Origin: Dactylococcopsis salina PCC 8305
GTDB taxonomy: Bacteria; Cyanobacteriota; Cyanobacteriia; Cyanobacteriales; Rubidibacteraceae
DNA: 64,000 nucleotides
Direction: 5' to 3'
Assembly: GCF_000317615.1 (NCBI RefSeq)
Contig: NC_019780.1
Location: 3,636,722-3,700,721 of the forward strand
Below the pieces are notes generated by a model, which did not search any database, was not told the DNA's origin, and saw only the letters and a list, made by a program, of their open reading frames with translations. A program made the position numbers and the translations under genes. Positions 24,941-45,555 of the stretch are shown here, piece by piece; positions within the stretch are counted from its first letter, which is position 1; each line of letters begins with the position of its first letter.

Positions 24941-24952
24941 CACCCTTACTCC

Positions 24953-25180
24953 TTAAAAATTAACAACATTACTTTCAGCCAGAAGGTTAGGTTTTCCCAC
25001 TGTTTGCAAAACCCAATTCAACCAGATATTTAAACCTTCTCCCGTCTTTCCAGAAACTGGAATTATGGTGACGTGAGGATTGATTTCTCGGACATTATTT
25101 TCAATCTGTTTGAGATTCACTTCTAAATGAGGGGCTAAGTCCATTTTAGTAATTAATAAACAGTCTGCTTCTTGAAACAT
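24953..25180 (-). pseudogene. hypB remnant (C-terminal third only)
   Basis: 75 residues matching only the C-terminal third of HypB-type GTPases: [20 protein letters not shown] (G4 region, TKMD) and [18 protein letters not shown] (G5 region). The His-rich N-terminus, the CxxC metal site, the P-loop and switch regions, roughly 150-200 residues, are missing. Between it and hypA only about 130 bp remain, containing TTGCCTCTTGC repeat fragments (about 25274-25300), which suggests a deletion through a repeat. It cannot bind GTP as it stands. Confidence 0.8.
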
Positions 25181-25313
25181 AACAGGATAACGTTTGGTGC
25201 ATCTTTTTAAACTATAGTGCTACAAAATCAGGTTAGGACATTCAAAAATGTTGAAACTCACCTATAACTCACTTTTGCCTCTTGCATGCAAGCCTCTTGC
25301 CTAGCGCGTAGCG

Positions 25314-25676: not shown

Positions 25677-25803
25677 CGGTAATTTCAATAGATTTCGGTT
25701 GAGATTCGATTCGCTTTAACCAAGATTGAATAGCTGGAAAAGAGTTTAAAGGGTTCAAAAAGGGGACGGGCTTTAGAACGATTTCCAAAGAGTAAACAAT
25801 CAT
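25663..25803 (-). CDS. Small ORF between gdmH and hypA, overlapping hypA
   Basis: 46 residues from the ATG at 25803; the frame is open back to 25839. The product reads MIVYSLEIVLKPVPFLNPLN and continues SFPAIQSWLKRIESQPKSIE to a TGA 14 nt inside hypA. The segment around FPAIQSWLKRIESQP looks like the C-terminal helix pattern of glutathione-S-transferase-type folds, so it may be a gene fragment. It could also serve to couple translation to hypA. Confidence 0.4.
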   Translation of the reverse strand: MIVYSLEIVLKPVPFLNPLNSFPAIQSWLKRIESQPKSIEITDARN

Positions 25804-25829
25804 ACAATCGACACATGATATCTGTTCAA

Positions 25830-26987
25830 TTAAGTCCAATTATTCGCAGTAATTTGTGCTTGTTCATGGATGTAATTGGGTTTTTCTTGACGAGGCAATT
25901 GTTCAGAAAGTACGAGATGCGCCATAGCATCACAAATCACTCGTGTTGCCATTAAAGCGGTCATATCGCTGACATCATAAGGGGGAGAAACCTCCACCAC
26001 TTCTAAACCACAAACGGGAACGCTTTGCACAATTTTTCCTAATAAATAAAGGGCTTCACGGGGTAATAATCCGCCGGGTTCGGGCCAGCCGGTTCCGGGT
26101 ACAAAACCAGCATCAATACAATCGATATCGAAGCTAATATAAACACAATCGGTTCCGTCCAAAGCCCGTTCCAACGCAAAATTTACCGCAGCATCTAATC
26201 CCATTTCTGTAATATCGGTAACGGTCAGAATATTCGTTGCCCGTTCTCGACAGACTTTGACTCCTTGACGGGGGACTTGCCAACCCCCTATTCCTAATTG
26301 AACAAGGTTTTTAGCTGGGGCGTTTTTGATATTTGTGGCGTGAAACCAGGGACAAGTGTGCATTCGTTCATCGAGATCACTTTCTTGAGTATCTACGTGG
26401 CGATCGAAGTGGATAATGCCAACTTTTTTCTCTCCTAAATGGCGACAAACCCCACGCACAGTGGGAAACCCGATCGAGTGATCACCGCCTAAGATAATCG
26501 GTAAAGCACCAGATTTAAAAATATGGGCAATGCCTTTAGAAATTTGGTCAAACGATTTTTCGTTATTGCCGGGGATGGTAAAAATATCCCCCACATCACA
26601 AAGGGTAATTTGTTCTCTTAAATCTACTCCCAGTTCAAAGTTATAGGGGGTATAAAGGGCGGAAATTTTGCGAATGCCTTGCGGTCCAAAGCGGGTACCG
26701 GGGCGGTAGGTGGTGCCAGAATCATGGGGAACACCGACGATCGCAACATCATAGTTTCCCACTTGTTTCACATCTTCTAAGTAGGGGGCTTTTAAGAAGG
26801 TGTTAATCCCAGCATAATGGGGCAGTTCACCTCGTGAAAAGGTGGAGATGCTTCGATCGCGAATACTATCTGCTGCTTCTAAGCCCTTGTTTAGCCCTTG
26901 ATCCACTTCTTGTTGCCAACCGGTAAAAGGTAACTGGCTTTCTTTGTCTAAAGCGCGGTTCGCTTCTGATTGGTTTTGATCAGTCAT
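25830..26987 (-). CDS. gdmH: Ni-dependent guanidine hydrolase (ureohydrolase family)
   Basis: 385 residues from the ATG at 26987 with AAGGAAATT upstream; a longer frame from 27029 runs into the riboswitch terminator and is rejected. Metal motifs of the arginase/agmatinase fold: GGDHSIG (about 167), HFDRHVDTQ (about 192; Arg where most arginases have Ala) and SFDIDCIDAGFVPG (about 283). The close cyanobacterial relatives beside HypA/HypB and an ABC importer are guanidine hydrolases releasing urea and ammonium. The guanidine-I riboswitch directly in front is strong independent support. Confidence 0.9.
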   Translation of the reverse strand: MTDQNQSEANRALDKESQLPFTGWQQEVDQGLNKGLEAADSIRDRSISTFSRGELPHYAGINTFLKAPYLEDVKQVGNYDVAIVGVPHDSGTTYRPGTRFGPQGIRKISALYTPYNFELGVDLREQITLCDVGDIFTIPGNNEKSFDQISKGIAHIFKSGALPIILGGDHSIGFPTVRGVCRHLGEKKVGIIHFDRHVDTQESDLDERMHTCPWFHATNIKNAPAKNLVQLGIGGWQVPRQGVKVCRERATNILTVTDITEMGLDAAVNFALERALDGTDCVYISFDIDCIDAGFVPGTGWPEPGGLLPREALYLLGKIVQSVPVCGLEVVEVSPPYDVSDMTALMATRVICDAMAHLVLSEQLPRQEKPNYIHEQAQITANNWT

Positions 26988-27010
26988 AATTTCCTTGATT
27001 CCTCCTAAAA

Positions 27011-27060
27011 TAAAAAACGGGAGACCCAAAGGTAGTTTAATCTACCGTTTAGACCTCCCG
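27011..27060 (-). terminator. Riboswitch-controlled terminator before gdmH
   Basis: On the minus strand CGGGAG (27060-27055), the 3' strand of the aptamer, can instead pair with CTCCCG (27023-27018), followed by six T (27017-27012). An internal GGTAG/CTACC hairpin sits in the loop. Ligand binding would hold the GGGAG strand in the aptamer and prevent termination: an ON switch. Confidence 0.85.
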
Positions 27061-29574: not shown

Positions 29575-30290
29575 TTAACGAGAGATGACAATCGAGTAAG
29601 AAAAGCGATCAGCACGAGAAATCGTTTCCCCATGAACAAGAGGGGTGCCATATTTACTATATGCAGTGTGGCGATAGACGATTAAGGGATGGAAGAGAGG
29701 AACGCTCAAATGTTGTGAAATTTCGGCATCAGCATGAGTACATTCAATAACCGCGTAAACTTGATCAATAATAATCCCTTGTTCTTCCAAGACAGAAAAG
29801 GTCATTGCTTCTTTAAGCTGTTCCCCGTAAGCGTCTCCAAGTTCGGGTAACGTATAAGTAATGTCGATCGCGCCGGCTAAACCATCAATAATAAGAAGTT
29901 TTTTTGCAGGTAGGCTTTCGGCGATGCGGTAGGAAGTTGGAGAATATTTTGAACCGTTGGCGGTGGCGTTACCAATTCCAGAGTGAGATTTTTAACGGTG
30001 AGTTCCAGTCCCTGATTTGCCATGTCTTGAGCTAAAAACATCGCAGCGGAACTCGAAAGCGAATAAGTCACTTTACGCTGTTCAGTGACAAAAACCCCTT
30101 TTCCCTGATAGGACAATACCAGTCCTTGATTAATTAAATTGGCAATTGCTTGGCGAATCGTTGTCCGACTGACATTAAATTCTTGAATCAGTTGAGACTC
30201 ACTGGGGAGTTGTTCTCCGGGTTGATAGATTTTTTCCTGAATGCGATCGCGCAATTTTTCTGAAATTAATAGGTGCAGGGGCTTGGGCAT
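29575..30290 (-). pseudogene. GntR/HutC-family regulator split by a frameshift
   Basis: The first part (30290 to 29877) holds the winged-helix domain, QLIQEFNVSRTTIRQAIANL, and half of the UTRA ligand domain. At an A7 run (29899-29905, minus strand) the frame ends, but the next frame continues the same protein: LLIIDGLAGAIDITYTLPEL through MTFSVLEEQGIIIDQVYAV to YRHTAYSKYGTPLVHGETIS. Adding one A restores one chain of about 239 residues. It is a real frameshift, a slippage site, or a sequencing error. A natural candidate for binding the TTGTnATAACAA operators of the island. Confidence 0.8.
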
Positions 30291-30331: not shown

Positions 30332-31051
30332 CTACCCTGTCATCACCGAAACAGTGGCGGCCGCTACTAAACCCTGAAAAATCTTTTGATGATTTTCATC
30401 AGCAGGAGACATTTCAGGATGCCACTGTAGCGCGATCGCCCAAGGATGAAACTGATGCTCGATCGCCTCAATTAAGCCATCTACACTATAACCCACTGCT
30501 TGCCAATTCGGGGGAGTGGCTTCAATTCCTTGATGGTGCAAGGACATAACAGTAAATTCTGTTTTCCCAATTATCTCATAGAGGCGACTATCTCGATCGA
30601 GGGAGACTTGATGGGGAACAAAGCGATGTCTGTTTCCCGCATGAAGCACTGTGTCACCATAGGTTTCAGGAAGATGCGGGACTAACTCGGGAAGACCACT
30701 GGCCAAACTCAACACTTGTAGCCCGCGACAAATCCCTAACACAGGTGTTTTAGAGCTTAAAACTTTCTCAGCGAGAGTAAATTCAAATTGATCTCGCTCG
30801 CGATCAACTTCACTAATGCTAGGGTGTCCCACACTAGAGTACCGTTGCGGATCGACATCACCGCCGCCTGTAATGACCAAGCCATCTATTACATCTAAAA
30901 TCCGATCAAGCTTCGTTTCACCAGGAGGAAGTAAAATAGGAATCCCGCCCGCCGTGCGAACCGAGTCGGCATAATTAGCACAGAGTTGGAAATGGGCGCA
31001 GTCATCTCGCCCTTCGGTGGTAATACCAATAATCGGTGGTTTCACAATCAT
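30332..31051 (-). CDS. Class-I glutamine amidotransferase-like hydrolase (peptidase C26, PuuD-like)
   Basis: 239 residues. The nucleophile Cys is in LGICRGLQVL (about 105-114) and the His/Glu pair in LQWHPEMS (about 209). TGGGDVDPQRY is typical for the C26 family that cleaves gamma-glutamyl bonds, such as PuuD of the putrescine pathway. With gamma-glutamyl ligase-like genes in the same island it may release the product of a gamma-glutamylated amine. It is preceded 1 bp away by a 102-residue ORF. Confidence 0.85.
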   Translation of the reverse strand: MIVKPPIIGITTEGRDDCAHFQLCANYADSVRTAGGIPILLPPGETKLDRILDVIDGLVITGGGDVDPQRYSSVGHPSISEVDRERDQFEFTLAEKVLSSKTPVLGICRGLQVLSLASGLPELVPHLPETYGDTVLHAGNRHRFVPHQVSLDRDSRLYEIIGKTEFTVMSLHHQGIEATPPNWQAVGYSVDGLIEAIEHQFHPWAIALQWHPEMSPADENHQKIFQGLVAAATVSVMTG

Positions 31052-31487: not shown

Positions 31488-31901
31488 TTATCTTCTCTTG
31501 CCCTTTCTATAGGGTTTTCTCTTACCTTTGCGAGAACTCAAGGGGGTAGCCACTCCCATTAACGCTAACGGGGCTAAAACTAGCTGCTGGCTCGATCGCG
31601 CCAAACGGACTCGCACGCGATTCGCTGCTTCTACCCGTTCCGGTTCAACAGAAGCACTCAAAAACGTCGCCATCCCTGTTGCCATCAGTAACCCCAAGAC
31701 GGCGGGATTTTTAGCGTTGTTTGTGCCTTGAGTCGTCCCAAAGGTGTAATAGAGGAAGTAGAGGAAAATCAACAAAGAAACCACCAGTAAAATGCCAATC
31801 AGTGCTGGACGATCCGCAAAGGTATAGAAAGCGCCTTCTGCGTTAGCAAATTCTTCTGCACTTTTGAAGGGACTTGCCCCTGCCAAGATTAATCTATTCA
31901 T
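31488..31901 (-). CDS. Small membrane protein of unknown function downstream of amt
   Basis: 137 residues, 15 bp after the amt stop. A hydrophobic segment at about 33-53 (ALIGILLVVSLLIFLYFLYY), a second at about 68-82 and perhaps a third near 107-118, and a very basic C-terminus (RKGKRKPYRKGKRR). Probably co-transcribed with amt. Family not recognised. Confidence 0.55.
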   Translation of the reverse strand: MNRLILAGASPFKSAEEFANAEGAFYTFADRPALIGILLVVSLLIFLYFLYYTFGTTQGTNNAKNPAVLGLLMATGMATFLSASVEPERVEAANRVRVRLARSSQQLVLAPLALMGVATPLSSRKGKRKPYRKGKRR

Positions 31902-31916: not shown

Positions 31917-33317
31917 TTATGATTTCTGTTGTGATGATAGAGAAGAAGACTCAAAGGACATTTCCTCCGCTTCTTCCCTTGCAATTAAGGAGTATTCTGG
32001 GTAACCTGTAATCCCAAAGTCTCCTAAATCTAATCCTTCCATTTCTTCTTCTACGGGAACGCGCAATAGACCAAACTTTTTCAGGGCTAAGCTGGCGAAA
32101 TAACCAGGAATCAAGCCTAAAACAATGGTACAGAGAAACGCCCCCAACAGTTGACCAAAGAAGTTAATGGCTGGATAATTTCCAATTTGGTATCCTGTCG
32201 CCATCACACCCACTGCCATTGCACCGAGTAAGCCACAGTAACCGTGAACCGCAAACGCCCCAACTGCGTCATCAATGCCAATTTTTTCAATCCACATTCC
32301 CACCCAGGGCATGGTGAGCGCACCAATGAAAGCAATAGGAATCACTAATTGAGGGGCATATAAATCGAGTCCCGCCCCCACCGAAATAATTCCAGCTAAG
32401 CCGCCAGAAATGGTAAAAAAGGGATCGCCTTTTGAGCCAATGTAAGCCCCTACCAGGCCACTACATAGAGCAAGAGTGGTATTCACCGCGATCGAGGATA
32501 GGGTTGCAGGTGTGCCATAAATGCTTGTTTCGTTGGTATAGCCAGGGGCAAAAATCACGCAAGCGGCGAGAAAAGCATAGAACCCCACAAAAATCAGCAA
32601 TAACCCCACCATTGTTAAGGGTAAATTATGGGGAGGAATGCCACGAGGCTTACCTTGCTGATCATAACGACCGATTCTGGGGCCCAAGTTAATCAAAACA
32701 CCAAGAGCAAAGAAACCCGAAACACCGTGTACAACTGCGGAACAGCCAAAATCATGGTAGCCAATGAGATTAAACCAACCCCAATAATTCCAACCCCATG
32801 CAGCCGCCACCACCCAACAAAAACTTCCCAGGAGGGTCGCTAAAATCAGGTAAGCGCCGAGACGAATCCGTTCAATAACAGCACCTGACATAATGGAAGC
32901 CGTAGTCATGGCAAAGAGGGAAAAGGCGAAGAAAAAGACCCCTGTAATGTTATCAGCAACATTGGGACCCATTGCTTCTGACCAAGGATAGGTGGTTTCG
33001 ACAAAGCCTAATAATCCCTCGGTACTTAATTCCCCAACTGTTTCCGGGAGTTCACTCGTCCAAGGCCCCACTAACGGACCCAATGGCCAGAGGGAGAATC
33101 CAGCATAAACCCACCAGCCGATAAAGAAAAAAGATAGCCCAACGACAGCAAGGGTGAGAAGGTTTTTCACCATTGTGGAGAGGACATTTTTCGTGCGGGC
33201 CGCTCCTCCTTCGTAAGCTAAGAATCCCACATGAATCACAAGCATAAACACAGAAGCCCAGTAGTAATAGGTTTCTGTGACAAAAGTAGCGAGAAAGTTT
33301 TGTGCTTCGGCTGACAT
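31917..33317 (-). CDS. amt: Ammonium transporter (Amt family)
   Basis: 466 residues, about 11 membrane spans. FGCSAVVHGVSGF and AVHGYCGLLGAMAVG carry the twin pore histidines, and WGWNYWGWF lines the entry. A plasma-membrane ammonium channel or transporter, here behind an NtcA box and a GntR-type palindrome. The C-terminal cytoplasmic tail (about 425-466) is acidic and unlike the PII-binding tail of E. coli AmtB. Confidence 0.93.
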   Translation of the reverse strand: MSAEAQNFLATFVTETYYYWASVFMLVIHVGFLAYEGGAARTKNVLSTMVKNLLTLAVVGLSFFFIGWWVYAGFSLWPLGPLVGPWTSELPETVGELSTEGLLGFVETTYPWSEAMGPNVADNITGVFFFAFSLFAMTTASIMSGAVIERIRLGAYLILATLLGSFCWVVAAAWGWNYWGWFNLIGYHDFGCSAVVHGVSGFFALGVLINLGPRIGRYDQQGKPRGIPPHNLPLTMVGLLLIFVGFYAFLAACVIFAPGYTNETSIYGTPATLSSIAVNTTLALCSGLVGAYIGSKGDPFFTISGGLAGIISVGAGLDLYAPQLVIPIAFIGALTMPWVGMWIEKIGIDDAVGAFAVHGYCGLLGAMAVGVMATGYQIGNYPAINFFGQLLGAFLCTIVLGLIPGYFASLALKKFGLLRVPVEEEMEGLDLGDFGITGYPEYSLIAREEAEEMSFESSSLSSQQKS

Positions 33318-33382: not shown

Positions 33383-33396
33383 GTAGCAGGAGCTAC
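33383..33396 (-). promoter_or_regulatory. NtcA box of amt
   Basis: GTAGCTCCTGCTAC on the minus strand, exact GTA-N8-TAC, 66 bp upstream of the amt start. Confidence 0.8.
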
Positions 33397-33412: not shown

Positions 33413-34315
33413 TTATCCGGTAACAGCAACCGCAGGGGAAAGGGCATTTCTGCAATAGTGGGCAAGATGGGGAGAACGATAGCCCTGTCTTGTCCACAGG
33501 ATGGGGAAGAAACTTTCATCCATTCTTACTTCTCCAACGCGCTGATAGCGCCCATAGATATAACCGGCAGGTACGCCAGGCTGAAAGTGGGCTTCCGAAC
33601 TGATGGTATGCACGGCTAAACTCCGTCGCGGATCGCTTGTACTGGTATTTTTTCCTGAACCGTGCCAAGTACAGCCATGATGAATGGCACAGCCTCCGGC
33701 GGGAATTTCCACAGGCACAACTTCTGGGTTAGAGACACCGGCAAGGGCAGCGGCTTTTTGCATTCCTGAGCGATGATCGCCTTGAGGGACGTGAAATTCT
33801 GAGGCTTCGTTGAGTAAGGGCCATTTGTGCGAACCACGAGCATATTCGAGGGGGCCGATTTCAGCACGGGTGTTATCAAGGGCAATCCAACAAGTGAGCA
33901 TTTCTGGGGGGTTGAGATAGTCAATGTAAGCGCCGTCTTGGTGCAGGGCGATTTCTTTTCCCCCGCCTGGAGGTTTGAACCAGAGGCTATCTTGCCCAAT
34001 GCGTGCCCCTGGCCATCCGGCTAAGGTGGCGCAGAGTCGCCCCACTTCTGATGAGAGGCTAACCGAGGCGATCGCGCGATCGCTTTTCCACGCATTACAC
34101 ATCTGGCGGGTGATATCGGGTAAACTCATCCCTGGTCGCCAGTGCCATTCATCGGGATAGATTCCTGTTTCAAATTCGCCGTGAAATAACGGTTCAATGC
34201 GCGATTTGAGAAGAGCGACTAATTCTGAGTCGATGAGCTTTTCAATCACCAAAAATCCATTTTCTTCAAAACTTGCTATTTGGTCGTCGGTGAGTTGAAT
34301 CGGTTGATAGGACAT
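33413..34315 (-). CDS. PhyH-family (phytanoyl-CoA dioxygenase-like) Fe(II)/2-oxoglutarate oxygenase
   Basis: 300 residues from ATG 34315; a GTG at 34324 is also possible. The iron site HxD is in ALHQDGAYIDY (about 128), the distal His in HHGCTWHGSG (about 217) and the oxoglutarate Arg in DPRRSLAVH. The family hydroxylates CoA esters, ectoine and quaternary amines; the substrate is not determined here. It sits between amt and the binding-protein/ligase genes with its own NtcA box, so action on a nitrogenous substrate is likely. Confidence 0.82.
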   Translation of the reverse strand: MSYQPIQLTDDQIASFEENGFLVIEKLIDSELVALLKSRIEPLFHGEFETGIYPDEWHWRPGMSLPDITRQMCNAWKSDRAIASVSLSSEVGRLCATLAGWPGARIGQDSLWFKPPGGGKEIALHQDGAYIDYLNPPEMLTCWIALDNTRAEIGPLEYARGSHKWPLLNEASEFHVPQGDHRSGMQKAAALAGVSNPEVVPVEIPAGGCAIHHGCTWHGSGKNTSTSDPRRSLAVHTISSEAHFQPGVPAGYIYGRYQRVGEVRMDESFFPILWTRQGYRSPHLAHYCRNALSPAVAVTG

Positions 34316-34347
34316 TTCTTTCACAGGGAAATTACTGCTTTTAACTT

Positions 34348-34377: not shown

Positions 34378-34391
34378 GTAGCTTGCAATAC
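34378..34391 (-). promoter_or_regulatory. NtcA box of phyH
   Basis: GTATTGCAAGCTAC on the minus strand; exact GTA-N8-TAC followed 21 nt later by TATCAT, matching the GTA-N8-TAC...TAN3T arrangement. Confidence 0.75.
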
Positions 34392-34455: not shown

Positions 34456-35157
34456 ATGAACCTACTACAATCAGGACAATTAACCATTGCTGCCAGTGAT
34501 TTTGATGCGCGTCCGATGAGTTACATAGAAAACGGCACGCGATCGGGCTACGAACCTGAGTTAATGGCAGAACTCTGTCATCGTTTAGACTTAAAACCAG
34601 TATGGCTCAATCTGCGGATGGAAGACTTTTATGAAGCAGTCGTTCAGAAAAAATGCGATCTCCTCGGCTTCAATCAAGCAATTACTCCAGAACGCTCTCA
34701 AAAGGTTAAATTTACGCGCTGTTACGGCTATTTTGATGAGGCGGTGTTAGTTCGTGCAGGGAGTAATATTCATTCCCCAGCAGACTTGGTGGGAAAACGA
34801 GTGGGCGGGCTTGCCGCTAGCACCAATTTAGCCCTAGCGGAGAGTTGGGAAGGGGTGGAAACTGTTGCTTTTCCAGGCAGCGATCGCGTCTTACCCGAAA
34901 TGATCGAAGCCCTGCGAAATCAAGAAATTGACGGGGTTGTGGATGATGAACTGGTATTAGTTCCCCCAGCAAAAACTGATCCCACATTGGAAGTGGGTTT
35001 TAGTGTCCCCACTCAAGTTCCCTTCGCGATCGCGATTCATCCCGACAACACAGAATTATGGCAAACCGTCGATGAGACGTTACAACAACTGATTAACGAT
35101 GGCTTTCTCAAACAGCTTTGGCAAAAGTGGATTCCTTGGAAACCTGCTCCTTTTTAA
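34456..35157 (+). CDS. Family-3 solute-binding-like protein without signal peptide
   Basis: 233 residues. The two-lobed amino-acid/amine-binding domain is visible (LTIAASDFDARPMSYIENGT, RSGYEPELMAELCHRL and LVGKRVGGLAASTNLALAE), but the N-terminus begins directly in the domain with no hydrophobic signal and no lipobox. It is therefore either cytoplasmic or misannotated at the start. No permease genes flank it. It lies between phyH and a glutamine-synthetase-like gene and may act as a ligand-binding or metabolite-sensing protein. Confidence 0.7.
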   Translation: MNLLQSGQLTIAASDFDARPMSYIENGTRSGYEPELMAELCHRLDLKPVWLNLRMEDFYEAVVQKKCDLLGFNQAITPERSQKVKFTRCYGYFDEAVLVRAGSNIHSPADLVGKRVGGLAASTNLALAESWEGVETVAFPGSDRVLPEMIEALRNQEIDGVVDDELVLVPPAKTDPTLEVGFSVPTQVPFAIAIHPDNTELWQTVDETLQQLINDGFLKQLWQKWIPWKPAPF

Positions 35158-35165: not shown

Positions 35166-35179
35166 GTATCTAAAACTAC
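35166..35179 (+). promoter_or_regulatory. NtcA box of the GS-like gene at 35326
   Basis: GTATCTAAAACTAC, exact GTA-N8-TAC, 147 bp upstream of the start. Confidence 0.75.
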
Positions 35180-35325: not shown

Positions 35326-36828
35326 GTGACAGCTACCACAGCAAAAACCGAAACGCTAACCGATATTGAAGCCTACGCCCAACAACCAGGACGAGCCGAG
35401 TTAATCCGAGAAGTCCGAGCTAAAATTGACGAACTGGGCATTCAATACATTTATTATCAGTTTGTTTCCATTACGGGGCGCATTGTCGGAAAAGGAGTAC
35501 CTGCTTCCGGTTGGGAAAAAGTCGCCAGTAAAGGATTTCAATTGGTCTATGGTGCAACGGCAAATTTAGCCCTCGATCGCCATCAAAATTATCTCGGTTA
35601 CGGCCCGGAAGCTGCGGAATTAGTGGCTCTCCCCGATCCAGAAACCTTCTGTCAACTGCCTTGGGATAAACGAGTCGCCCGTGTCTTCTGTACCTGTTTT
35701 CGCAATCGGGAAGAAATGACCGATCCAGGGGCGTTTCTCACCAGTGATTGTCGGGGCAATTTAAAACGCCTTCATGCAGAATTTCAAGCCAAACACAACG
35801 GCTTACATCTCCGTCACGGTTGCGAACCAGAAATGATGTGGCTGAAGCGAGGCGAAGACGGAAAACCCGCTGGAGGCGTAACCAAACCCAACTGTTATCA
35901 TATCGACCAGTTTGAAGAATTGCGCCCAGTATTCATGCGGGTGATTGAATATTGTCAAGCAATGGGCTTAGAAATGATCCAAGGGGATCACGAAGACGCG
36001 CCAGGACAACTGGAATTAAACTTTACCTTTGATGATGCCCTGCGAACCTGCGATCGCCTCGTCACCTATCGCCAGATTTGCGCCCAAGTTGCCCGTGAGT
36101 TTAACCTGATTGCTTGTTTCATGTCGAAACCGTTTATGGGGGTTTCTGCTTCTGGGTGTCACCATAACCTTTCCTTGTGGTACGGTGGCGAAGAAACAGT
36201 TAAGCCTCTGGTGGGCAGCAAAATGCCTGGGCTTTCTGATGTATTTACCTATCAAGAAGGAGGCAAAAATACGTTTATGCCCCTCCCTGACTCCCATCCC
36301 ACCCATCCCGGCCCCATCGGTTTAAATGGCATTGGCGGTGTGATTGAGCATTTAGCCGCCCTCACCGCGATCGGGTGTTCAACGGTTAATTCCTATCGTC
36401 GCCTCTGGGATACAGGCTTCTGGGCGCCAGTTTACGCCGACTGGGGCTATCAAAACCGCACTTGTGGCTTACGAGTCTCTGCCCCCGGACGGTTTGAATA
36501 TCGGGCTGTTGATTCAATGGTGAATCCTTATTTGATGGCGGGAGCATTATTAAAAGCCTTTGATGATGGCATCGATCGCGATCTCGATCCTGGTGCGCCA
36601 GAAACCCGCAACATCTACGAAGCAATGGACGCGGGGAAACAAGTGAAAAAACTGCCCATGTCTCTGGGAGAAGCCTTAATGGCGTTAGATCAAGATGAAG
36701 TAATTAAATCGGCACTTCCTGGCGAGATGTATCACGTTTACACTTCCTATAAACGGGATGAGTGGGAGCGTTTTCTCGCTACGACAACTAACTGGGATAT
36801 GGAGATGTATCTCGATTGCTTGCCTTAA
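35326..36828 (+). CDS. Glutamine-synthetase-like gamma-glutamyl ligase (500 residues)
   Basis: GTG start with AGGAGA upstream. The beta-grasp N-domain is followed by the GS catalytic core: CEPEMMW (Glu pair), GDHEDAPGQLELNF (metal Glu), SGCHHNLSLW (His), NRTCGLRVSAPGRFEYRAV (Arg/Glu). All metal and nucleotide residues look intact. It is longer than GlnT and lacks strong similarity to biosynthetic GS-I, placing it with GS-like ligases that make gamma-glutamyl amides from amines. In this NtcA-controlled amine island it is a candidate gamma-glutamyl-amine synthetase; substrate unknown. Confidence 0.8.
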   Translation: MTATTAKTETLTDIEAYAQQPGRAELIREVRAKIDELGIQYIYYQFVSITGRIVGKGVPASGWEKVASKGFQLVYGATANLALDRHQNYLGYGPEAAELVALPDPETFCQLPWDKRVARVFCTCFRNREEMTDPGAFLTSDCRGNLKRLHAEFQAKHNGLHLRHGCEPEMMWLKRGEDGKPAGGVTKPNCYHIDQFEELRPVFMRVIEYCQAMGLEMIQGDHEDAPGQLELNFTFDDALRTCDRLVTYRQICAQVAREFNLIACFMSKPFMGVSASGCHHNLSLWYGGEETVKPLVGSKMPGLSDVFTYQEGGKNTFMPLPDSHPTHPGPIGLNGIGGVIEHLAALTAIGCSTVNSYRRLWDTGFWAPVYADWGYQNRTCGLRVSAPGRFEYRAVDSMVNPYLMAGALLKAFDDGIDRDLDPGAPETRNIYEAMDAGKQVKKLPMSLGEALMALDQDEVIKSALPGEMYHVYTSYKRDEWERFLATTTNWDMEMYLDCLP

Positions 36829-37763: not shown

Positions 37764-39134
37764 CTAACCTGCTTTCACCACTAACTCTTTTTCCGTCGCT
37801 AAAAACGCAGCCATTGAATCATCCAACGCATTCAGCCAAGGGGTATGATGAACTGGGGCTTTCTCGCCATTACAAGGGGAAACAAAGGCTTGATCCCGAT
37901 AGGTGAGAATATTCTCAACTTTGTGATGTTCCCATGTCTTGAAAGCATTCGCTGCTGCATCTAGATCAAAGTCTTCATAGTCTGTCGCAGCGCAAAGGTC
38001 TTTAATATAATCAGTTTGGAAGTCGATATCTTCAAAAGGGTTAGAGAGGGCTTCTTCTCGGGTTTTCCAAGTGGTCATATCTTCCAGTCTGACACTTGCT
38101 TCCGGAAGAGCGATATTTCCCAAAATCACATCCCTTGCATACCACGCCTGCGCGTCAAACATGGTAAAGGTGTAGTATTGGTCTTGCATTCCCAAATACA
38201 TTAGTTTGGGGTTATCTTGCCAGAAAATGCCTTTATAAAGACCATCGGGATAGAGACAGTTATGGGTTTTTAAGCGCAGAGAATCTTCTAAAAAGGGGAA
38301 ACTGTGGAGATATCCCGTACAGAGAATAATGGCATCTAAATCATCTTGATCAGTTCCATCTGCAAACTGAGCGCTTTTTCCTTGTAACTTCATGGGAAGA
38401 GGAACTTCTTTAATTCCCTCTGGCCAGTTAAAGCCCATTGGAGAACTGCGATAACCAATGGTAACCGATCGCGCTCCATATTTATACATCTGTAGGGCAA
38501 TATCTTCGGCTGAATAGCTGCTACCAATAACAACCGTATTGCGATCGCGAAACTCCTCAGCATCTCGGAAGTCGTGGCTGTGCATTACCCGTCCCGAAAA
38601 CGATTCTAAGCCCTCAAGATGGGGAACATTGGGAATCGAAAAATGACCTGTTGCAACAATAACATAATCAAAGGTTTGACACTGTTCTTGTTGGGTTTTT
38701 AAATCTTCTACAACCACCTGAAACTGATCGCTGTCTTGATCATATTCAACTCGTCGCGCAACGGTTTCAAACTGAATATAACGGTCTAAATTTTCGGATT
38801 TCGCTCGTCCTGTAATGTAATCATAAAGGACTGGACGCGGGGGAAAAGAGGGAATATTTTTCTGAAAATGATCGGAAAAGGTATAATCAGCAAACTCCAA
38901 ACATTCTTTCGGTCCATTTGACCACAGATAGCGATACATACTCCCGTGAACCGGTTCGCCATGTTCATCCAAGCCTGTGCGCCATGTATAATTCCATAAA
39001 CCTCCCCAGTTTTTCTGCTTTTCAAAACAAACAATTTCAGGAATGTCGATTCCGTTTAATCTGGCTTTTTCAAAGGCGTGTAGCTGAGACAGTCCACTGG
39101 GACCCGCGCCAATAATTGCAACTCGTTGATTCAT
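37764..39134 (-). CDS. tmm: Flavin monooxygenase, trimethylamine monooxygenase (Tmm)-like
   Basis: 456 residues. FAD site GAGPSGLSQLHAF (9-21); the FMO fingerprint region FSGRVMHSHDF (about 161-171); NADPH site GSSYSAEDIA (about 185). The long stretches GGLWNYTWRTGLDEHGEPVH and GSMYRYLWSNGPKECLEFAD, together with GMQDQYYTFTMFDAQAWYAR, are what I remember of bacterial trimethylamine monooxygenases of Methylocella and roseobacters, which oxidise trimethylamine to its N-oxide. Such a gene is unexpected in a cyanobacterium. It is divergent from the DUF1989-GcvT gene, 136 bp apart with an NtcA box between. Other tertiary amines or dimethylsulfide could be substrates. Confidence 0.82.
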   Translation of the reverse strand: MNQRVAIIGAGPSGLSQLHAFEKARLNGIDIPEIVCFEKQKNWGGLWNYTWRTGLDEHGEPVHGSMYRYLWSNGPKECLEFADYTFSDHFQKNIPSFPPRPVLYDYITGRAKSENLDRYIQFETVARRVEYDQDSDQFQVVVEDLKTQQEQCQTFDYVIVATGHFSIPNVPHLEGLESFSGRVMHSHDFRDAEEFRDRNTVVIGSSYSAEDIALQMYKYGARSVTIGYRSSPMGFNWPEGIKEVPLPMKLQGKSAQFADGTDQDDLDAIILCTGYLHSFPFLEDSLRLKTHNCLYPDGLYKGIFWQDNPKLMYLGMQDQYYTFTMFDAQAWYARDVILGNIALPEASVRLEDMTTWKTREEALSNPFEDIDFQTDYIKDLCAATDYEDFDLDAAANAFKTWEHHKVENILTYRDQAFVSPCNGEKAPVHHTPWLNALDDSMAAFLATEKELVVKAG

Positions 39135-39200
39135 ACGTTTTTTATGGCACTCTATTCGTCAATTAAACGCTAATGCTAGCAAAGCTCTTCCTTTCTCTCC

Positions 39201-39214
39201 GTAGTCAGAGATAC
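39201..39214. promoter_or_regulatory. NtcA box between the tmm-like and tdm-like genes
   Basis: GTAGTCAGAGATAC, an exact GTA-N8-TAC in the divergent region; the palindromic site could serve either gene. It is followed on the plus strand, five bases later, by TGTCATAACA. Confidence 0.8.
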
Positions 39215-39218
39215 AAAC

Positions 39219-39230
39219 TTGTCATAACAA
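39219..39230 (+). promoter_or_regulatory. GntR-type operator palindrome at the tdm-like gene
   Basis: TTGTCATAACAA, one mismatch from the palindrome at amt and the GS-like gene, at the same 5-base distance from the NtcA box. Confidence 0.5.
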
Positions 39231-39270
39231 GATTGCTTAACTAGATCAAGAACAGGCAAAACATGAAGTT

Positions 39271-41076
39271 ATGGTACTCACAACCCCGCAAAAACAAGTT
39301 GTTGCTGAATACGAAATTCCCCCCAGAAGCGCGATCGCGTATCAAGTGAAAGCGGGACAATATATTCAAATTATCGACCCCGAAGGCAGTCAATGTTCTG
39401 ATTTTCTTGCCTTTGCGGGGGATAACTACGAAGAAGAATTAGACAACGCCGTCACTCGCACTATTAACACAGTTGCTACAGCACAAGTGGGATTATATGG
39501 CAAGTATTTCTCTCAGAAAATGTGTCCGTTAGTCGAGGTCATTCAAGACACCTCTGGCTGTCACGATAGCTTTTTACTCGCTTGTACCAGCAAATACTAC
39601 GAAGATGCGGGTTATCCTGGTCATCCCAGTTGTAGTGAGAATTTCAACCGCGCCTTAGCGGAATATGGCATAAAACCGCGTCTGGGGTGGGCCGCCATTA
39701 ACTTCTTTTTTAACACCCATGTGGATGAAATGGGAAACATTGTAACAGAAGAATCGCGATCGCGCCCCGGAGATTATGTTATCCTACAAGCGAAGACAGA
39801 CTTACTCTGCGCCAGTTCCGCCTGTCCCGATGACATTGATCCGGCAAACGGTTGGCATCCCACAAGCATTCAAGTCCGCATCTATGACTCCGAAACCCCC
39901 TTTAACCGCGCCCTTGGTATTCGCGCCACTCCCGATGCACCCGTGCGTCTCACCAGAGACAGTGCTTTTACCCCTCGCATTCGGACTTTAACCGATGACT
40001 TAGTTGAGTATAACGGATTTTGGGTTGCTAATCGCTTCGCCAATCGGGGGGAATACGAAGAATATTGGTGCTTGCGGGAGAAAGCAGGATTAATCGACCT
40101 GTCAGCACTGCGAAAATGGGATATTTTGGGCAAAGATGCTCTAGAATTACTACAAATTACTTTTTCTCGGAATCTGGAAAAACTAGCGGTTGGACAAGCC
40201 ACTTACGGCTGCTTAATCAATGGACATGGGGGAATTTTAGATGATGGGATTGTCTTTCGTCTCAATGAGAAAGATTATCGCTATGTGGGAAACTGCGATC
40301 GCGATCAGGAATGGTTAGAAAAAATCGCTAATCGTCTGCAATTAGATGTCAAAATTGTCCCCAAAAGTGACCAACTCCATAACTTATCATTACAAGGAGC
40401 GCGATCGCGTGACATTCTCCGTCCTCTTCTAACTTTAGACGGAATGACTCTCGATGAATTGGGTTATTTCCGTTTCGCCACAGGAAGGCTAAATTCTATT
40501 CCTGTTTTTGTTTCTCGCACGGGTTACACAGGGGAATTAGGCTATGAAATCTTTGTCCATCCCAATGAGGGGGTCACCCTGTGGGATACGCTAATGGAAG
40601 CAGGGGCATCTTATGGACTCTCCCCAATGGGAATGTTAGCCCTCGATCGCGCCCGAATTGAAGCGGGATTACTCAGCGCTGGTTGTGAATTTGACGATCT
40701 CACCTCTCCCTATCAAGCTGGAATCGGCTGGTGTGTCAGCTTGAAAAAACCCCATTTTATCGGGAAAACCGCCCTCGAACAGATTAAACCTCATCCCCCT
40801 CGTGTTGCTGTGGGATTAGTCTTAGCAAGTAACGACATTGCCTGTGGCGGACAGTGTATTTATGCCCAAGGCGAACGGTGGCGCGTGGGAAAAGTTACTA
40901 GCGGAACCTATTCCCCCATCCTAAAGCGTAGCATTGCTCTCGCCCAAGTCGTTCCCGAATTTGCCCAACCTGAAACCATTTTAGAAGTCGGATTCCGCGA
41001 TGGGATTCGTCGCGTTAGTGCTGTCGTCGGTTCCCTCGCTGCCTTTGATCCGCAAAAAACTCGCGTTAAAAGTTGA
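39271..41076 (+). CDS. tdm: DUF1989-GcvT fusion, TMAO demethylase (Tdm)-like
   Basis: 601 residues. Residues about 15-215 are a DUF1989 (urea-carboxylase-associated) domain with Cys clusters DTSGCHDSFLLAC, GHPSCSEN and LLCASSACPDD; residues about 230-595 are a GcvT-like folate domain (SRTGYTGELGYEIFVHP, LDRARIEAGLL). TMAO demethylase of Methylocella and roseobacters, to my knowledge, has this same architecture, splitting TMAO to dimethylamine and formaldehyde, with folate trapping the C1 unit. The partner tmm-like gene is divergent from it. DUF1989-GcvT proteins with other substrates exist, so the reaction is inferred from architecture and context. Confidence 0.65.
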   Translation: MVLTTPQKQVVAEYEIPPRSAIAYQVKAGQYIQIIDPEGSQCSDFLAFAGDNYEEELDNAVTRTINTVATAQVGLYGKYFSQKMCPLVEVIQDTSGCHDSFLLACTSKYYEDAGYPGHPSCSENFNRALAEYGIKPRLGWAAINFFFNTHVDEMGNIVTEESRSRPGDYVILQAKTDLLCASSACPDDIDPANGWHPTSIQVRIYDSETPFNRALGIRATPDAPVRLTRDSAFTPRIRTLTDDLVEYNGFWVANRFANRGEYEEYWCLREKAGLIDLSALRKWDILGKDALELLQITFSRNLEKLAVGQATYGCLINGHGGILDDGIVFRLNEKDYRYVGNCDRDQEWLEKIANRLQLDVKIVPKSDQLHNLSLQGARSRDILRPLLTLDGMTLDELGYFRFATGRLNSIPVFVSRTGYTGELGYEIFVHPNEGVTLWDTLMEAGASYGLSPMGMLALDRARIEAGLLSAGCEFDDLTSPYQAGIGWCVSLKKPHFIGKTALEQIKPHPPRVAVGLVLASNDIACGGQCIYAQGERWRVGKVTSGTYSPILKRSIALAQVVPEFAQPETILEVGFRDGIRRVSAVVGSLAAFDPQKTRVKS

Positions 41077-41078
41077 TT

Positions 41079-41603
41079 ATGCTGTCAAAAACACCCGTTT
41101 CCTTTCTTTCTCTCCCTCTTGCGACCTATTGGGACTTTGCAGGAGTTGATGGTCTGGCGTTCGCCTCTAGTCTTGCGGGAGAAACCGCCCATCGTCTTTC
41201 TGTATTTCAATCCCAAACCATCACCATCGCAGGAGAAACCTGTTCCCTGTTGCGACTGTGTGAAAAGAACTTTCGCCTCAGTGCCTCCCAAACTGCCACA
41301 GAAAAGATTGAATCCCATTTAAAACCCGCCCAAAACCATTGGTGTGTCTGGGTCAACCGTTGCGAGAATTTAGGAATTTTAGCCCTTCCCGATGCTTGGG
41401 GAATGACCTTTTTGCAGGAAAACGCCACACCAAAACCGCCCCATCGTTTACAGGGGTTATGGCGCGATCGCGCTGTTCCTGCCCGTCTCAATGGTACTGC
41501 CATTTTAATCTGGAGACGACCGCAGTGGGTAGAATTACAACTCGCCCTCAGCCAGAAAAATGACCTAGAAGCAGCAATCAATCCTCCCAATGACCAAGCA
41601 TAA
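41079..41603 (+). CDS. Unknown protein downstream of the tdm-like gene, faintly SoxG-like
   Basis: 174 residues starting 2 nt after the tdm-like stop, so surely co-transcribed. Two Cys (CSLLRLCEKN) and a WRRPQWVEL tail; it resembles in length and position the sarcosine-oxidase gamma subunit (which accompanies folate-domain proteins), but I do not see a decisive motif. No membrane segment. Confidence 0.55.
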   Translation: MLSKTPVSFLSLPLATYWDFAGVDGLAFASSLAGETAHRLSVFQSQTITIAGETCSLLRLCEKNFRLSASQTATEKIESHLKPAQNHWCVWVNRCENLGILALPDAWGMTFLQENATPKPPHRLQGLWRDRAVPARLNGTAILIWRRPQWVELQLALSQKNDLEAAINPPNDQA

Positions 41604-42032: not shown

Positions 42033-42944
42033 ATGCTGACGGATCAAAAACAAGTAAACCCGCGTCAAGTGCTAGGAGTGGAAACCCTAAAATCCCTCAA
42101 CGAACGGTCTGATCGTAAAGGACTGTTACAACTAATCGCCCACTTAACCGTTATGGGAGTCAGTGGCTATCTCTGGGGAAGCCATATCGAGAAAGGATGG
42201 CTAGTGTTTCCCGTTCTGGTTGTCTATGGCTTTAGTCTGGCTTCCATGTTTGCCGCTTTACATGAGTGTGTTCACCGCACCGCTTTCGCCACTAATCGCC
42301 TCAACGGCGCGATCGCGTGGTTAGCGGGACTCTTATCTCTTTACAACAGCACCTATTACCGTCACTATCATAAATGGCATCATCGTTATACCCAAACGGA
42401 TAAAGACCCAGAGTTAGAAGACCCGAAACCCACTAACTGGCAAGAATATCTATGGCAACTCAGCGGTTTGCCTTGGTGGTGGGGAAAACTCCAGACGTAT
42501 TGGAAACTCACCACAGGTCAAATCGAAAATTATCCCTTTTTGCAAGAAAAATCGGGGAAAGACGTGATTCTCTCGGCAAGACTACAACTATTCGCTTATC
42601 TCGGCGCGATCGCGCTCAGTAGTGCCTTGGGACATCCCGAAGCGTTTTTCTTATACTGGATGCTTCCTCTCGCCGTCGGTCAACCGATGCTGCGGTTTAT
42701 TCTCCTTGCTGAACATACTGGCTGCACCGATGATGATAACCCCCTCACCAACACTCGCACCACCCTAACCCTGTTCCCGATACGGCTGTTAATGTGGAAT
42801 ATGCCCTATCACGCCGAACATCATCTTTATCCTTCTCTCCCTTTTCATGCCTTACCGAAAGCCCATCAACAGCTTTCTCCTTACTTTGAACGAGTCGAGA
42901 AAGGGTATGTGCAAGTCAATCGTAATATTGTTAGTCGTTTTTAA
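42033..42944 (+). CDS. Membrane fatty-acid-desaturase-like di-iron oxygenase
   Basis: 303 residues, four or more membrane spans. Three His boxes: HECVH (about 76), HYHKWHH (about 111) and HAEHH (about 255). The di-iron desaturase/hydroxylase fold could desaturate lipids, but it lacks clear likeness to the DesA-D series, and its place with the hydrolase and amine genes suggests a hydroxylase or N-dealkylase role. Function not determined. Confidence 0.8.
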   Translation: MLTDQKQVNPRQVLGVETLKSLNERSDRKGLLQLIAHLTVMGVSGYLWGSHIEKGWLVFPVLVVYGFSLASMFAALHECVHRTAFATNRLNGAIAWLAGLLSLYNSTYYRHYHKWHHRYTQTDKDPELEDPKPTNWQEYLWQLSGLPWWWGKLQTYWKLTTGQIENYPFLQEKSGKDVILSARLQLFAYLGAIALSSALGHPEAFFLYWMLPLAVGQPMLRFILLAEHTGCTDDDNPLTNTRTTLTLFPIRLLMWNMPYHAEHHLYPSLPFHALPKAHQQLSPYFERVEKGYVQVNRNIVSRF

Positions 42945-42961
42945 GCAAAGGACAGTCAAGA

Positions 42962-43996
42962 ATGGGCGCAGCAGCCGGTTGTTTTGTTATCCCTAACTTT
43001 GAGTTGCAATGTGGAAAAGTCTTACCTGAAGCCAAGCTGGTTTATCAGACTTATGGGGAACTTTCCCCCACTCGGGATAATGTTATTCTCTATCCCACAT
43101 CTTACGGCGCACGACATCCCGATTTAGAATGGTTGATTCATCGCGATCGCATTTTAGACCCCGATCGCTGGTTTATTATTATTCCCAATCAGTTTGGCAA
43201 TGGCTTATCCAGTTCTCCCAGCAACGATCCTCAGTGTAAACTAAGAGAATCAGAATTTTGGTTTACCCATTGGGATAACATTCGCGCCCAAGATCGCCTC
43301 TTAAAAGAAGTCTTTGGCATCGAAACCCTTGCCCTAGTCTATGGTTGGTCAATGGGGGCGCAACAGGCTTATCATTGGGGAGCATTGCATCCAGAGCGGG
43401 TTAAGCGTATTGTGGCATTATGTGGCACTGCTTGCACCACCGAACACAATCAAGTCTTTCTGGAGAGTTTACGGGCTGCACTCACTGCCGATCCCACATG
43501 GCAAGGGGATCAGTTTTCAGGAACTCCCGAACGCGGTTATCGGGCGTTTGCGCGAATTTATGCCAGTTGGGCTGCTTCCCCAGCCTTTTATCGGCAAGGA
43601 ATACATTACAAACAAGGGTTTGCATCCCTAGAAGATTACTTACTGCGCGGTTGGGAACCCAATTATCGCCAGCGCGATCCTCATGATCTTCTCTCCATGC
43701 TGGAAACCTGGCGACGGTGTGATCTTAGCGATAATCCCGTCTATCAGGGAGAACGCGATCGCGCCTACAGTGCCATCAAAGGCAAAACCTTAGTGATGCC
43801 AGCGACCACAGACTTGTATTTTACCCCAGAAGACTGTCAAGCCGAAGCCGATCGCATCCCTAACGCCGAATATCGTCCGATTCCCTCTATTTGGGGACAT
43901 CGCGCCGGGAATCCCTCTCAAAACCCCACAGATGAAACATTCATCGCCACTGCGGTCAAAAATTTATTATCACGAGGAGATCGGTTGCAAAGTTGA
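42962..43996 (+). CDS. MetX-like alpha/beta-hydrolase
   Basis: 344 residues, 17 bp after the desaturase. The nucleophile elbow is GWSMGAQQAYHW (about 127-138), late Asp in PATTDLYFTPED (about 281) and His in SIWGHRAG (about 315), the catalytic triad of homoserine O-acetyltransferase-like proteins. Position in the island rather than beside methionine genes argues for a different acyl or amide substrate. Confidence 0.75.
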   Translation: MGAAAGCFVIPNFELQCGKVLPEAKLVYQTYGELSPTRDNVILYPTSYGARHPDLEWLIHRDRILDPDRWFIIIPNQFGNGLSSSPSNDPQCKLRESEFWFTHWDNIRAQDRLLKEVFGIETLALVYGWSMGAQQAYHWGALHPERVKRIVALCGTACTTEHNQVFLESLRAALTADPTWQGDQFSGTPERGYRAFARIYASWAASPAFYRQGIHYKQGFASLEDYLLRGWEPNYRQRDPHDLLSMLETWRRCDLSDNPVYQGERDRAYSAIKGKTLVMPATTDLYFTPEDCQAEADRIPNAEYRPIPSIWGHRAGNPSQNPTDETFIATAVKNLLSRGDRLQS

Positions 43997-44235: not shown

Positions 44236-45555
44236 ATGGTAGCCACACAAAATAGTTTATCAAATATTGCCGAAGAAAAAGGGATTAATTATTTTCTCAT
44301 TTCTTTTACTGATTTATTTGGGGTACAACGTTCAAAACTCGTTCCCAAAGCGAGCATCGACAAAATGACAAAAGAGGGCGCTGGCTTTGCTGGCTTTGCT
44401 GCTTGGTTAGATTTAACCCCCGCCGATCCCGATATTTTAGCCATTCCTGATCCCAATAGTTTATTCCAACTCCCTTGGCAATCCGATGTCGCCTGGATGC
44501 CTGCTGACCTCTATACTACCTCGGGAGAACCTTTAGAACAAACCCCAAGATTAATTCTCAAAAAAGCCCTCAATCAGTTAAAAACTGAAGGTTATCAAGT
44601 TAAAACAGGCGTTGAATGTGAATATTTTTTATTAACCCCTGAAGGGGATTGTATTTCCGATCCTTGGGATAATCAACAGAAACCTTGTTATGATCAACAA
44701 GCCCTCATGCGTCGTTATGAAATCATTAGAGAAATCTGCGACGGGATGACAACTTTAGGCTGGAATCCCTATCAGAATGATCACGAAGATGCCAAAGGTC
44801 AATTTGAAATGAACTGGACTTATGACGAGGCTTTAGCAACAGCAGATCGTCACGCTTTTTTCAAATATATGGTGAAATCCCTTGCTGAAAAACACGGCTT
44901 AAAAGCAACATTTATGCCAAAACCATTTCGGGATTTAACAGGAAATGGCTGTCATGTTCATCTCTCACTTTGGAATCAAGAAGGAAACAAAAATATCTTT
45001 TGTGATTCTCAAGGCGAGTTAGGATTGTCTTCTTTTGCCTATAAATTTATTGCAGGAATTCTTCACTCCTCACAAGCACTTTGCGCCTTTACCAATCCCA
45101 CCATAAATTCTTATAAACGGATTAAGGCAGCTACCACCATGTCTGGGGCTACTTGGTCACCAAATACCGCAAGTTATAGTGGAAATAATCGCACTCATGC
45201 CATTCGCATTCCCGATCGCGATCGTTTTGAAATTCGTATGGCTGACGGAGCAGCCAATCCCTATCTCTTGCCAGCCGCACTCATTGCCGCTGGCTGGAAT
45301 GGCGTAGTTGAACAAAGAGAACCAGGCCCGCGTTATGATAATAATGCTTATACTGATCCGCTTCCTTTAGACAAAGTGAAACAATTACCCAGTAATCTTT
45401 TAGATGCGTTGCGTTACTTAGAAAACGATCAGATACTATCTCAAACCCTCGGTGAAAACTTTGTTTCCTCTTATATCAAATTAAAGTCTCAGCAATGGGA
45501 TAACTATAATACTGAAATTACCCCTTGGGAATGGAAGGCAACACTAGATTGTTAG
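44236..45555 (+). CDS. GlnT/type-III glutamine-synthetase-like ligase
   Basis: 439 residues. GS core motifs are intact: GVECEYFLL, NDHEDAKGQFEMNW, TGNGCHVHLSLW, NRTHAIRIPDRDRFEIRMAD. This is the GlnT group that contains gamma-glutamylmethylamide synthetase (GmaS), which ligates glutamate and methylamine, as well as true ammonia ligases. With tmm- and tdm-like genes nearby it is a candidate GmaS; the enzymes that process gamma-glutamylmethylamide (Mgs, Mgd) are not in the window. Confidence 0.8.
   Translation: MVATQNSLSNIAEEKGINYFLISFTDLFGVQRSKLVPKASIDKMTKEGAGFAGFAAWLDLTPADPDILAIPDPNSLFQLPWQSDVAWMPADLYTTSGEPLEQTPRLILKKALNQLKTEGYQVKTGVECEYFLLTPEGDCISDPWDNQQKPCYDQQALMRRYEIIREICDGMTTLGWNPYQNDHEDAKGQFEMNWTYDEALATADRHAFFKYMVKSLAEKHGLKATFMPKPFRDLTGNGCHVHLSLWNQEGNKNIFCDSQGELGLSSFAYKFIAGILHSSQALCAFTNPTINSYKRIKAATTMSGATWSPNTASYSGNNRTHAIRIPDRDRFEIRMADGAANPYLLPAALIAAGWNGVVEQREPGPRYDNNAYTDPLPLDKVKQLPSNLLDALRYLENDQILSQTLGENFVSSYIKLKSQQWDNYNTEITPWEWKATLDC

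Follow-up and report, generated by a model that had tools for sequence, protein, structure and literature searches.

The stretch analysed here, referred to below as the window, comprises 64,000 nucleotides of the genome of Dactylococcopsis salina PCC 8305 (NC_019780.1, positions 3,636,722 to 3,700,721), and contains a divergent pair of genes predicted to encode a trimethylamine monooxygenase (Tmm) and a short form of the trimethylamine N-oxide demethylase (Tdm), the latter followed by a small gene. The preliminary description of this DNA had noted a flavin-containing monooxygenase (FMO) divergent from a DUF1989-GcvT fusion protein with a small open reading frame (ORF) behind the latter, and all three ORFs were confirmed at that location:

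37764..39134, minus strand: Tmm ORF, 456 amino acids (aa)
39271..41076, plus strand: short Tdm ORF, 601 aa
41079 (or 41073) to 41603, plus strand: small ORF, by linkage and structural model a candidate Tdm gamma subunit, with a stand-alone GcvT-like domain in the model, 174 (or 176) aa

The gap between tmm and tdm is 136 bp, and the small-ORF ATG at 41079 lies 2 bp past the Tdm stop codon. The Pfam matches are FMO-like (3e-50) for the Tmm ORF, and DUF1989 (2e-48), GCV_T (3e-64) and GCV_T_C for the Tdm ORF. The HIP1 element GCGATCGC, which we take to be a cyanobacterial hallmark, occurs 27 times in the window against an expectation of 0.45, a count that fits a cyanobacterial origin of the DNA. 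The genes were traced through a class sample of 388 Cyanobacteriia genomes from 159 genera, a phylum draw of 386 genomes and a 319-genome draw for a flavoprotein discussed below; genomes and loci are designated by G and L numbers, the window's genome being G000. The starts of cyanobacterial ORFs were set mechanically, and some Tdm copies are cut at contig ends (L104, L105).

Several lines of evidence place the FMO with Tmm, which it had been said to resemble closely. The protein passes the curated NCBIfam model NF058570 (trimethylamine monooxygenase) with 770 bits against a cut-off of 675, and its best relatives in the PDB are bacterial FMOs scoring 581-632 bits, headed by 7d4k (632) and including 6kbw, which carries the name trimethylamine monooxygenase; the next FMO, 5nmw, scores 185. 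Of 273 matches to plasmid-borne proteins, the 60 listed divide into one group with 54-61% identity over 86-100% of the query and another with at most 30% over about half of it. A tree of 18 sequences sets 9 cyanobacterial Tmm beside 8 proteobacterial ones (including Tmm7211 of SAR11) and apart from a distant FMO, with the outgroup branch very long, the bootstrap unsettled and the cyanobacterial sequences not forming a single clade when so rooted. Profile score, PDB and plasmid matches and tree all agree on placement with Tmm. Moreover, the protein displays the motifs GAGPSG and FSGRVMHSHDF, and 17 of 20 NADP- or FAD-contact residues (counting Asp314) are identical to those of Pelagibacter Tmm7211, as listed in PMC8498191, the residue numbering having been transferred by hand from the alignment of PDB relatives. 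The residues kept include Trp70, Asn72, Asp314, Gln315 and Arg409; those changed are V125A, Y170L and H227S, the latter two at positions that vary among the aligned FMOs too. The best reading of these similarities is that the enzyme would turn trimethylamine (TMA) into trimethylamine N-oxide (TMAO).

The partner protein was proposed to have the architecture of TMAO demethylase, and the homology to Tdm indeed extends over its full length. It contains DUF1989 followed by GcvT in a single chain, scores 785.7 bits against NF053776 (TMAO demethylase), covering positions 159-762 of the 763 in the model, aligns co-linearly from end to end with PDB 9q59, a Tdm (572 bits, starting at 9q59 residue 185), and is 44-48% identical to plasmid-borne Tdm of Rhizobium, Paracoccus, Acinetobacter and others among the matches listed. 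Furthermore, the DUF1989 metal and substrate residues, on which the preliminary description had made its assignment depend, are present: the ORF keeps D44, C105, H118, C121, C185, D187 and D188, among which D44, C105, H118, C121, C185 and D188 correspond to Asp198, Cys263, His276, Cys279, Cys343 and Asp346 of the reference Tdm, metal-site residues according to PMC12560246. The equivalents of D198, C263, H276, C279 and C343 are invariant in all 45 cyanobacterial Tdm and that of D346 is found in 44, although the Zn cysteines may be common to other DUF1989 proteins as well.

The cyanobacterial protein is unusual in lacking, by profile, 9q59 and multiple-sequence alignments, the N-terminal DUF1989-like domain of about 180 aa that PMC12560246 terms ubiquitous in Tdm. 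The residues ahead of the Tdm core number 0-122 in the 45 cyanobacterial sequences, a range that includes some upstream open frame or cut sequences, versus 176-186 in 8 proteobacterial ones. Because this domain is absent, the ORF falls short of the NF053776 cut-off of 1100 bits; it is most likely a short variant that would work like Tdm, rather than a full member by the curated test. In addition, two positions that contact tetrahydrofolate (THF) are replaced, by Phe329 and Leu458. The Tdm of Methylocella silvestris has matching replacements (F487 and L618), does not need THF for demethylation, and releases only slightly less formaldehyde in its presence, as reported in PMC12560246. Given these parallel replacements, the suggestion that the pathway delivers C1 units to folate is not supported; that of a conversion of TMA to TMAO and then to dimethylamine is the best reading in view of the Tmm placement and the Tdm residues.

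With respect to the small gene, linkage and predicted fold both point to a role alongside Tdm. In 41 of 45 loci it lies 3' of tdm in the same orientation; the two genes are adjacent in 39 of these, and in L080 and L103 they are 0.6-1.0 kb apart. By mechanical ORF start it overlaps tdm by 4 bases in 25 loci. In three more genomes (G511, G463 and G612, the tdm of the last cut by a contig end) it is found elsewhere, so that it is present in 44 of the 45 Tdm genomes. Among 21 tested genomes without intact Tdm, 19 are without the small gene, and G005 and G408, which make up the rest, retain pieces of it as well as of tdm, as expected if both were lost together. The window's small ORF has no match in Pfam or NCBIfam; across its 35 homologues, the Pfam and NCBIfam matches comprise weak GCV_T hits in 5 (best 0.0022) and no sarcosine oxidase gamma model, and the copy from L088 retrieved no plasmid match. 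These 35 are the sequences aligned out of 41 loci, L065, L066, L078, L083, L084 and L103 having been left out as extended, truncated or displaced. An AlphaFold2 model built from this alignment (pLDDT 94.7) displays the GcvT fold when compared with the T-protein 1wos (Z 16.2 over 164 residues, root mean square deviation 2.8), and among the top Foldseek matches with this fold, the ones comparable in length are 1vrq_C (rank 9) and 2gag_C (rank 19), gamma chains of heterotetrameric sarcosine oxidase, which larger GcvT-containing chains outrank. The possibility that the small ORF is the detached N-terminal domain of Tdm was ruled out by an hhalign probability of 0.3% and by its GcvT fold.

The proposal that the small protein is a new subunit of Tdm, already entertained as a possibility in the preliminary description, is thus well supported by linkage and by the fold that the model predicts. 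Alternatively, it could assist in folding or assembly, or help by binding folate, without being a stable subunit, which we consider unlikely: the fold is also matched by YgfZ and IBA57, which we take to be Fe-S assembly proteins, and GcvT domains rank above the gamma chains, but the small protein is close to the gamma chains in length (190-195 aa) whereas YgfZ has 325 aa, and in most loci its gene adjoins the stop codon of tdm or overlaps it.

The short Tdm is present in 45 of the 388 Cyanobacteriia genomes and 27 of the 159 genera; this class sample supersedes the phylum draw, in which a full-length match, by coverage, was found in 2 of 386 genomes. In the latter draw, the best match among 103 other genomes of the window's order, family or genus was no stronger than 2.7e-64, versus 5.8e-237 for the window. 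The 45 cyanobacterial Tdm group together in a clade that excludes 8 proteobacterial sequences (support 100/100), and a scan of genome contigs with Tdm returned a single locus, in a Chloroflexi metagenome-assembled genome, where the match is to the GcvT part at 35%. Acquisition by transfer is likely, and loss in relatives is also possible; G005, which belongs to the window's order, family or genus group, carries a decayed Tdm along with fragments of a flavoprotein that resembles acyl-CoA dehydrogenases (ACAD). Decayed cassettes with short Tdm fragments near the ammonium transporter Amt were observed in L131 (G005) and L133 (G408), with a broken ACAD in G005.

Tmm occurs in 9 of the 388 genomes, all within the 45 that have Tdm. 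The ACAD-like flavoprotein (e.g., L072:11988-13424) accompanies Tdm in 33 of the 45 genomes, none of which is among the 9 with Tmm, and G607, G612 and G621 have Tdm with neither; in the 319-genome draw, 28 of 30 ACAD genomes have Tdm. A p-value of 2.5e-7 for this mutual exclusivity was set aside, as the pattern requires only 3 switches on the Tdm tree and a sign test on independent pairs is non-significant; with so few switches, the exclusivity is suggestive and not proven. The position that aligns by eye with the catalytic Glu of the medium-chain (MCAD) type is replaced, reading GWVMGPTNE in the 19 copies that cover the region. The nearest solved relatives of the flavoprotein are ordinary acyl-CoA dehydrogenases, with lower scores for the ACAD-fold enzymes DnmZ and KijD3, both presumably N-oxygenases; no plasmid match was obtained at 1e-60. 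The flavoprotein, never found alongside Tmm in the 45 Tdm genomes, is a concrete candidate for a new TMA N-oxygenase, a proposal supported by its co-occurrence with Tdm, its exclusion from Tmm genomes and the altered Glu position; the small number of switches and the ordinary ACAD relatives argue against it, as does the possibility of a role in another step.

Additional genes and NtcA-type boxes surround the pair:

31488..31901, minus strand: small membrane-like protein beside Amt, with homologues next to Amt in many Tdm loci
31917..33317, minus strand: ammonium transporter Amt (PF00909, 1e-64)
33383..33396, plus strand: NtcA-type box GTAN8TAC upstream of Amt
33413..34324, minus strand: PhyH-type Fe/2-oxoglutarate dioxygenase (PF05721, 5e-27)
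34378..34391, plus strand: NtcA-type box GTAN8TAC between PhyH and the substrate-binding protein (SBP)
34456..35157, plus strand: SBP_bac_3 protein, divergent from PhyH (PF00497, 4e-24)
35166..35179, plus strand: NtcA-type box GTAN8TAC upstream of GS500
35326..36828, plus strand: GS500, a ligase resembling glutamine synthetase (GS), with Gln-synt_C
39201..39214, plus strand: NtcA-type box GTAN8TAC in the tmm-tdm gap
44236..45555, plus strand: gamma-glutamylmethylamide synthetase (GmaS), 439 aa, 582 bits to RhGmaS 7cql

The four boxes in this list, each in a promoter region, are perfect copies of GTAN8TAC, which we take to be the NtcA consensus. The window has 15 such sequences, whereas 6.7 would be expected, a count reached by 1 of 100 shuffles. 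The box between tmm and tdm has -10-like TAN3T spacing towards tmm only. Across loci, such boxes precede PhyH in 9 of 16 cases (1.2 expected), GS500 in 13 of 17 (1.1 expected) and Amt in 17 of 28 (2.2 expected), as counted after dropping genes with less than 70% coverage, low identity or less than 200 bp upstream and with mononucleotide shuffles as controls. Control of the cassette by NtcA in response to nitrogen appears likely from this distribution of predicted sites.

GmaS retains all six residues given as diagnostic in PMC7948447: Lys30, Ala48, Asp177, Glu186, Trp300 and Arg312 correspond to K34, A52, D182, E191, W307 and R319. Amt of this kind accompanies Tdm in 27 of 45 loci by hand count, and Amt also lies near Tmm or Tdm in known TMA clusters of Aquabacterium and Thioclava. 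GS500 is present in 42 of the 45 Tdm genomes versus 12 of the 343 others (Fisher p about 1e-41, a value that ignores kinship). It has Trp in the Glu-flap position, as does GmaS, a hint that it may take an amine substrate; against this hint, one alignment pairs an Asp of GS500 with the Asp50'-loop Asp of ordinary GS, whereas another puts Val there. PhyH has an H-x-D motif (128-130) with His221 further on, and recurs near Tdm or GS500; the SBP starts directly with its domain and by eye is without a signal peptide, and the PhyH-SBP pair recurs across loci. The L087 copy of the small membrane-like protein has no Pfam or NCBIfam match. A copper amine oxidase is encoded in some Tdm loci.

Between tdm and GmaS, at 42033-43996 (plus strand), lie genes for a desaturase-like protein and a MetX-like hydrolase, which may provide a dimethylamine enzyme. 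In L105, relatives of both are found close to GmaS-like genes, and L081 has a relative of the hydrolase. On the other side of the cassette, a Peptidase C26 protein resembling the gamma-glutamyl hydrolase PuuD is encoded at 30332-31051 (minus strand), with relatives in L080 and L132, and a GntR-family regulator at 29877-30290 (minus strand) looks truncated (137 aa versus about 245 aa in L072).

We propose that Tmm, the short Tdm and the gamma-like protein probably constitute a nitrogen-scavenging module that NtcA would switch and that would be served by GmaS and Amt for capture. In this module, Tmm would oxidise TMA to TMAO with NADPH, FAD and O2, and the short Tdm, with the Zn/Fe site held by DUF1989, would split TMAO into dimethylamine and formaldehyde, as homology and residue conservation suggest. 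The 174-aa protein would bind the GcvT half of Tdm as a gamma subunit; in heterotetrameric sarcosine oxidase, SoxG contacts the GcvT half. NtcA would turn the cassette on under nitrogen limitation, and the methylamine released later would be caught by GmaS and the ammonium by Amt.

Several observations weigh against this proposal. Besides the missed profile cut-off and missing N-terminal domain of Tdm, G535, whose tdm is cut by a contig end, yielded no copy of the small gene. Upstream boxes are at chance level for Tdm (1 of 43), ACAD (0 of 18) and Tmm (1 of 8), which at Tdm could reflect its frequent position after same-strand genes elsewhere, and some of the window's boxes are intragenic (21560, 39584). 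A 78% relative of the window's GmaS is encoded in the same-genus genome G054, which has no Tdm; the idea of GmaS as part of a single transferred cassette was consequently discarded. No TMA or TMAO transporter was identified. Finally, among components acting downstream of Tdm, the window's genome was searched for PF11927, MgsC and SoxA/MgdC, the other Dmm, Mgs and Mgd subunits not being part of the search. PF11927, which we take to be the DUF3445 component of Dmm, was not found there, yet is present in 9 of 20 Tdm genomes tested (of the 45). Nor was a stand-alone MgsC: PF01645 occurs only in a 1569-aa frame, which by its size is GltB, and in one 31-bit match. A full-length SoxA/MgdC was likewise not found, nearly full-length matches below the cut-off occurring in 3 of 10 Tdm genomes tested. 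Given that PF11927, stand-alone MgsC and MgdC were not found, no known TMA-to-ammonium route is complete in this genome.

These gaps would be expected if the pathway stopped at dimethylamine, with Tmm and Tdm acting in C1 or formaldehyde turnover or in detoxification and yielding no nitrogen, and a precedent is offered by SAR11, which has Tmm, Tdm and GmaS but no DmmDABC according to PMC5520151. We regard this as rather improbable, since the NtcA-type boxes on the cassette, the linkage to Amt and the presence of GmaS in the window point to nitrogen use. As for the enzymes themselves, the main substrate of the FMO could be a different one, such as dimethylsulfide, and that of the DUF1989-GcvT protein an N-oxide other than TMAO. 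The Tmm of SAR11 oxidises dimethylsulfide too, and residues cannot fix specificity in bacterial FMOs, which reportedly lack direct contacts between residue and substrate (PMC8498191); moreover, 36 of the 45 Tdm genomes have no Tmm. However, all 9 genomes with Tmm have Tdm, which fits TMAO as a common intermediate, and the homology to Tdm is full-length, so that we deem such substrates improbable. Production of TMAO by Tmm as an osmolyte, with recycling by Tdm, could be imagined in a salt-loving species, and D. salina is a halophile; such a role is most improbable, however, considering that Tdm is spread over 27 of the 159 genera and that the cassette promoters have NtcA-type boxes.

The preferred reading, a nitrogen-scavenging module, leaves the dimethylamine step to be assigned, and PhyH and GS500 are, speculatively, candidates for it within the cassette. 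We advance the following generalization only tentatively, and consider it doubtful as a whole: a widespread NtcA-controlled methylamine system of cyanobacteria, in which a two-subunit Tdm would be fed by either Tmm or an ACAD-fold TMA N-oxygenase, and PhyH and GS500 would replace Dmm and the N-methylglutamate pathway. The occurrence of PF11927 in close to half of the Tdm genomes tested speaks against it.

Both TMA and TMAO are abundant nitrogen compounds, and accounts of their aerobic use come mainly from proteobacteria, in which the pathway is treated by PMC13390433 and PMC5520151. The preliminary description knew of no cyanobacterial account, and a search of the open literature, with subscription papers and bioRxiv outside its scope, found no paper on Tmm plus Tdm in cyanobacteria; this novelty is qualified by a remark, in PMC12206446, that the FMO of Trichodesmium (Tery_3826) might scavenge organic nitrogen such as TMA. 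Should the present proposal be confirmed, the competitors for TMA and TMAO would include photosynthetic cyanobacteria from 27 of the 159 sampled genera. Furthermore, a Tdm that works in the short form with a gamma-like protein would mean that the 'ubiquitous' N-terminal domain can be dispensed with, and the mechanism of Tdm could then be studied on a simpler enzyme.

Elsewhere in the window, the stretch 20360-27029 (minus strand) encodes a ureohydrolase, a HypA nickel chaperone, an ABC transporter, a Rieske oxygenase and a TauE-like protein (the last recognised by eye). The ureohydrolase matches 7esr/7oi1 with 764 bits, entries that bear the label probable agmatinase 2 and presumably represent a guanidine hydrolase, and the stretch is likely a guanidine-use cluster, with NtcA-type boxes at 25792 and 27032. 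The biotin-synthesis enzyme BioU is encoded at 13603-14574 (minus strand; 603 versus a cut-off of 600).

Comparison with known systems brings out both shared and distinctive features. Like the Tdm of M. silvestris and 9q59, the cyanobacterial Tdm combines DUF1989 and GcvT and has the Zn/Fe residues and the THF-site replacements; unlike them, it has no N-terminal DUF1989-like domain. The GmaS resembles that of Rhodovulum sp. 12E13 (7CQL) in overall score (582 bits) and in all six diagnostic residues; in its setting it differs, the downstream MgsC and MgdC not having been found in the window's genome. The small protein parallels the sarcosine oxidase gamma chains (2gag_C, 1vrq_C) as a stand-alone GcvT-like domain of similar length encoded alongside a GcvT-containing catalytic protein. 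It departs from SoxG in having 15% identity to it, in being recognised by no family model, and in its partner, which is a DUF1989-GcvT protein and no flavoprotein. Relative to the Tmm-Tdm-DmmDABC-GmaS-Mgs/Mgd pathway of Ruegeria pomeroyi and Methylocella silvestris, the window's genome differs in that PF11927, stand-alone MgsC and MgdC were not found. Nevertheless, the window shares with the proteobacterial pathway Tmm, Tdm, GmaS and Amt, here within about 14 kb, as well as the metal and catalytic residues, and adds to these the GcvT-fold small protein, the NtcA-type boxes, PhyH, the SBP and GS500.

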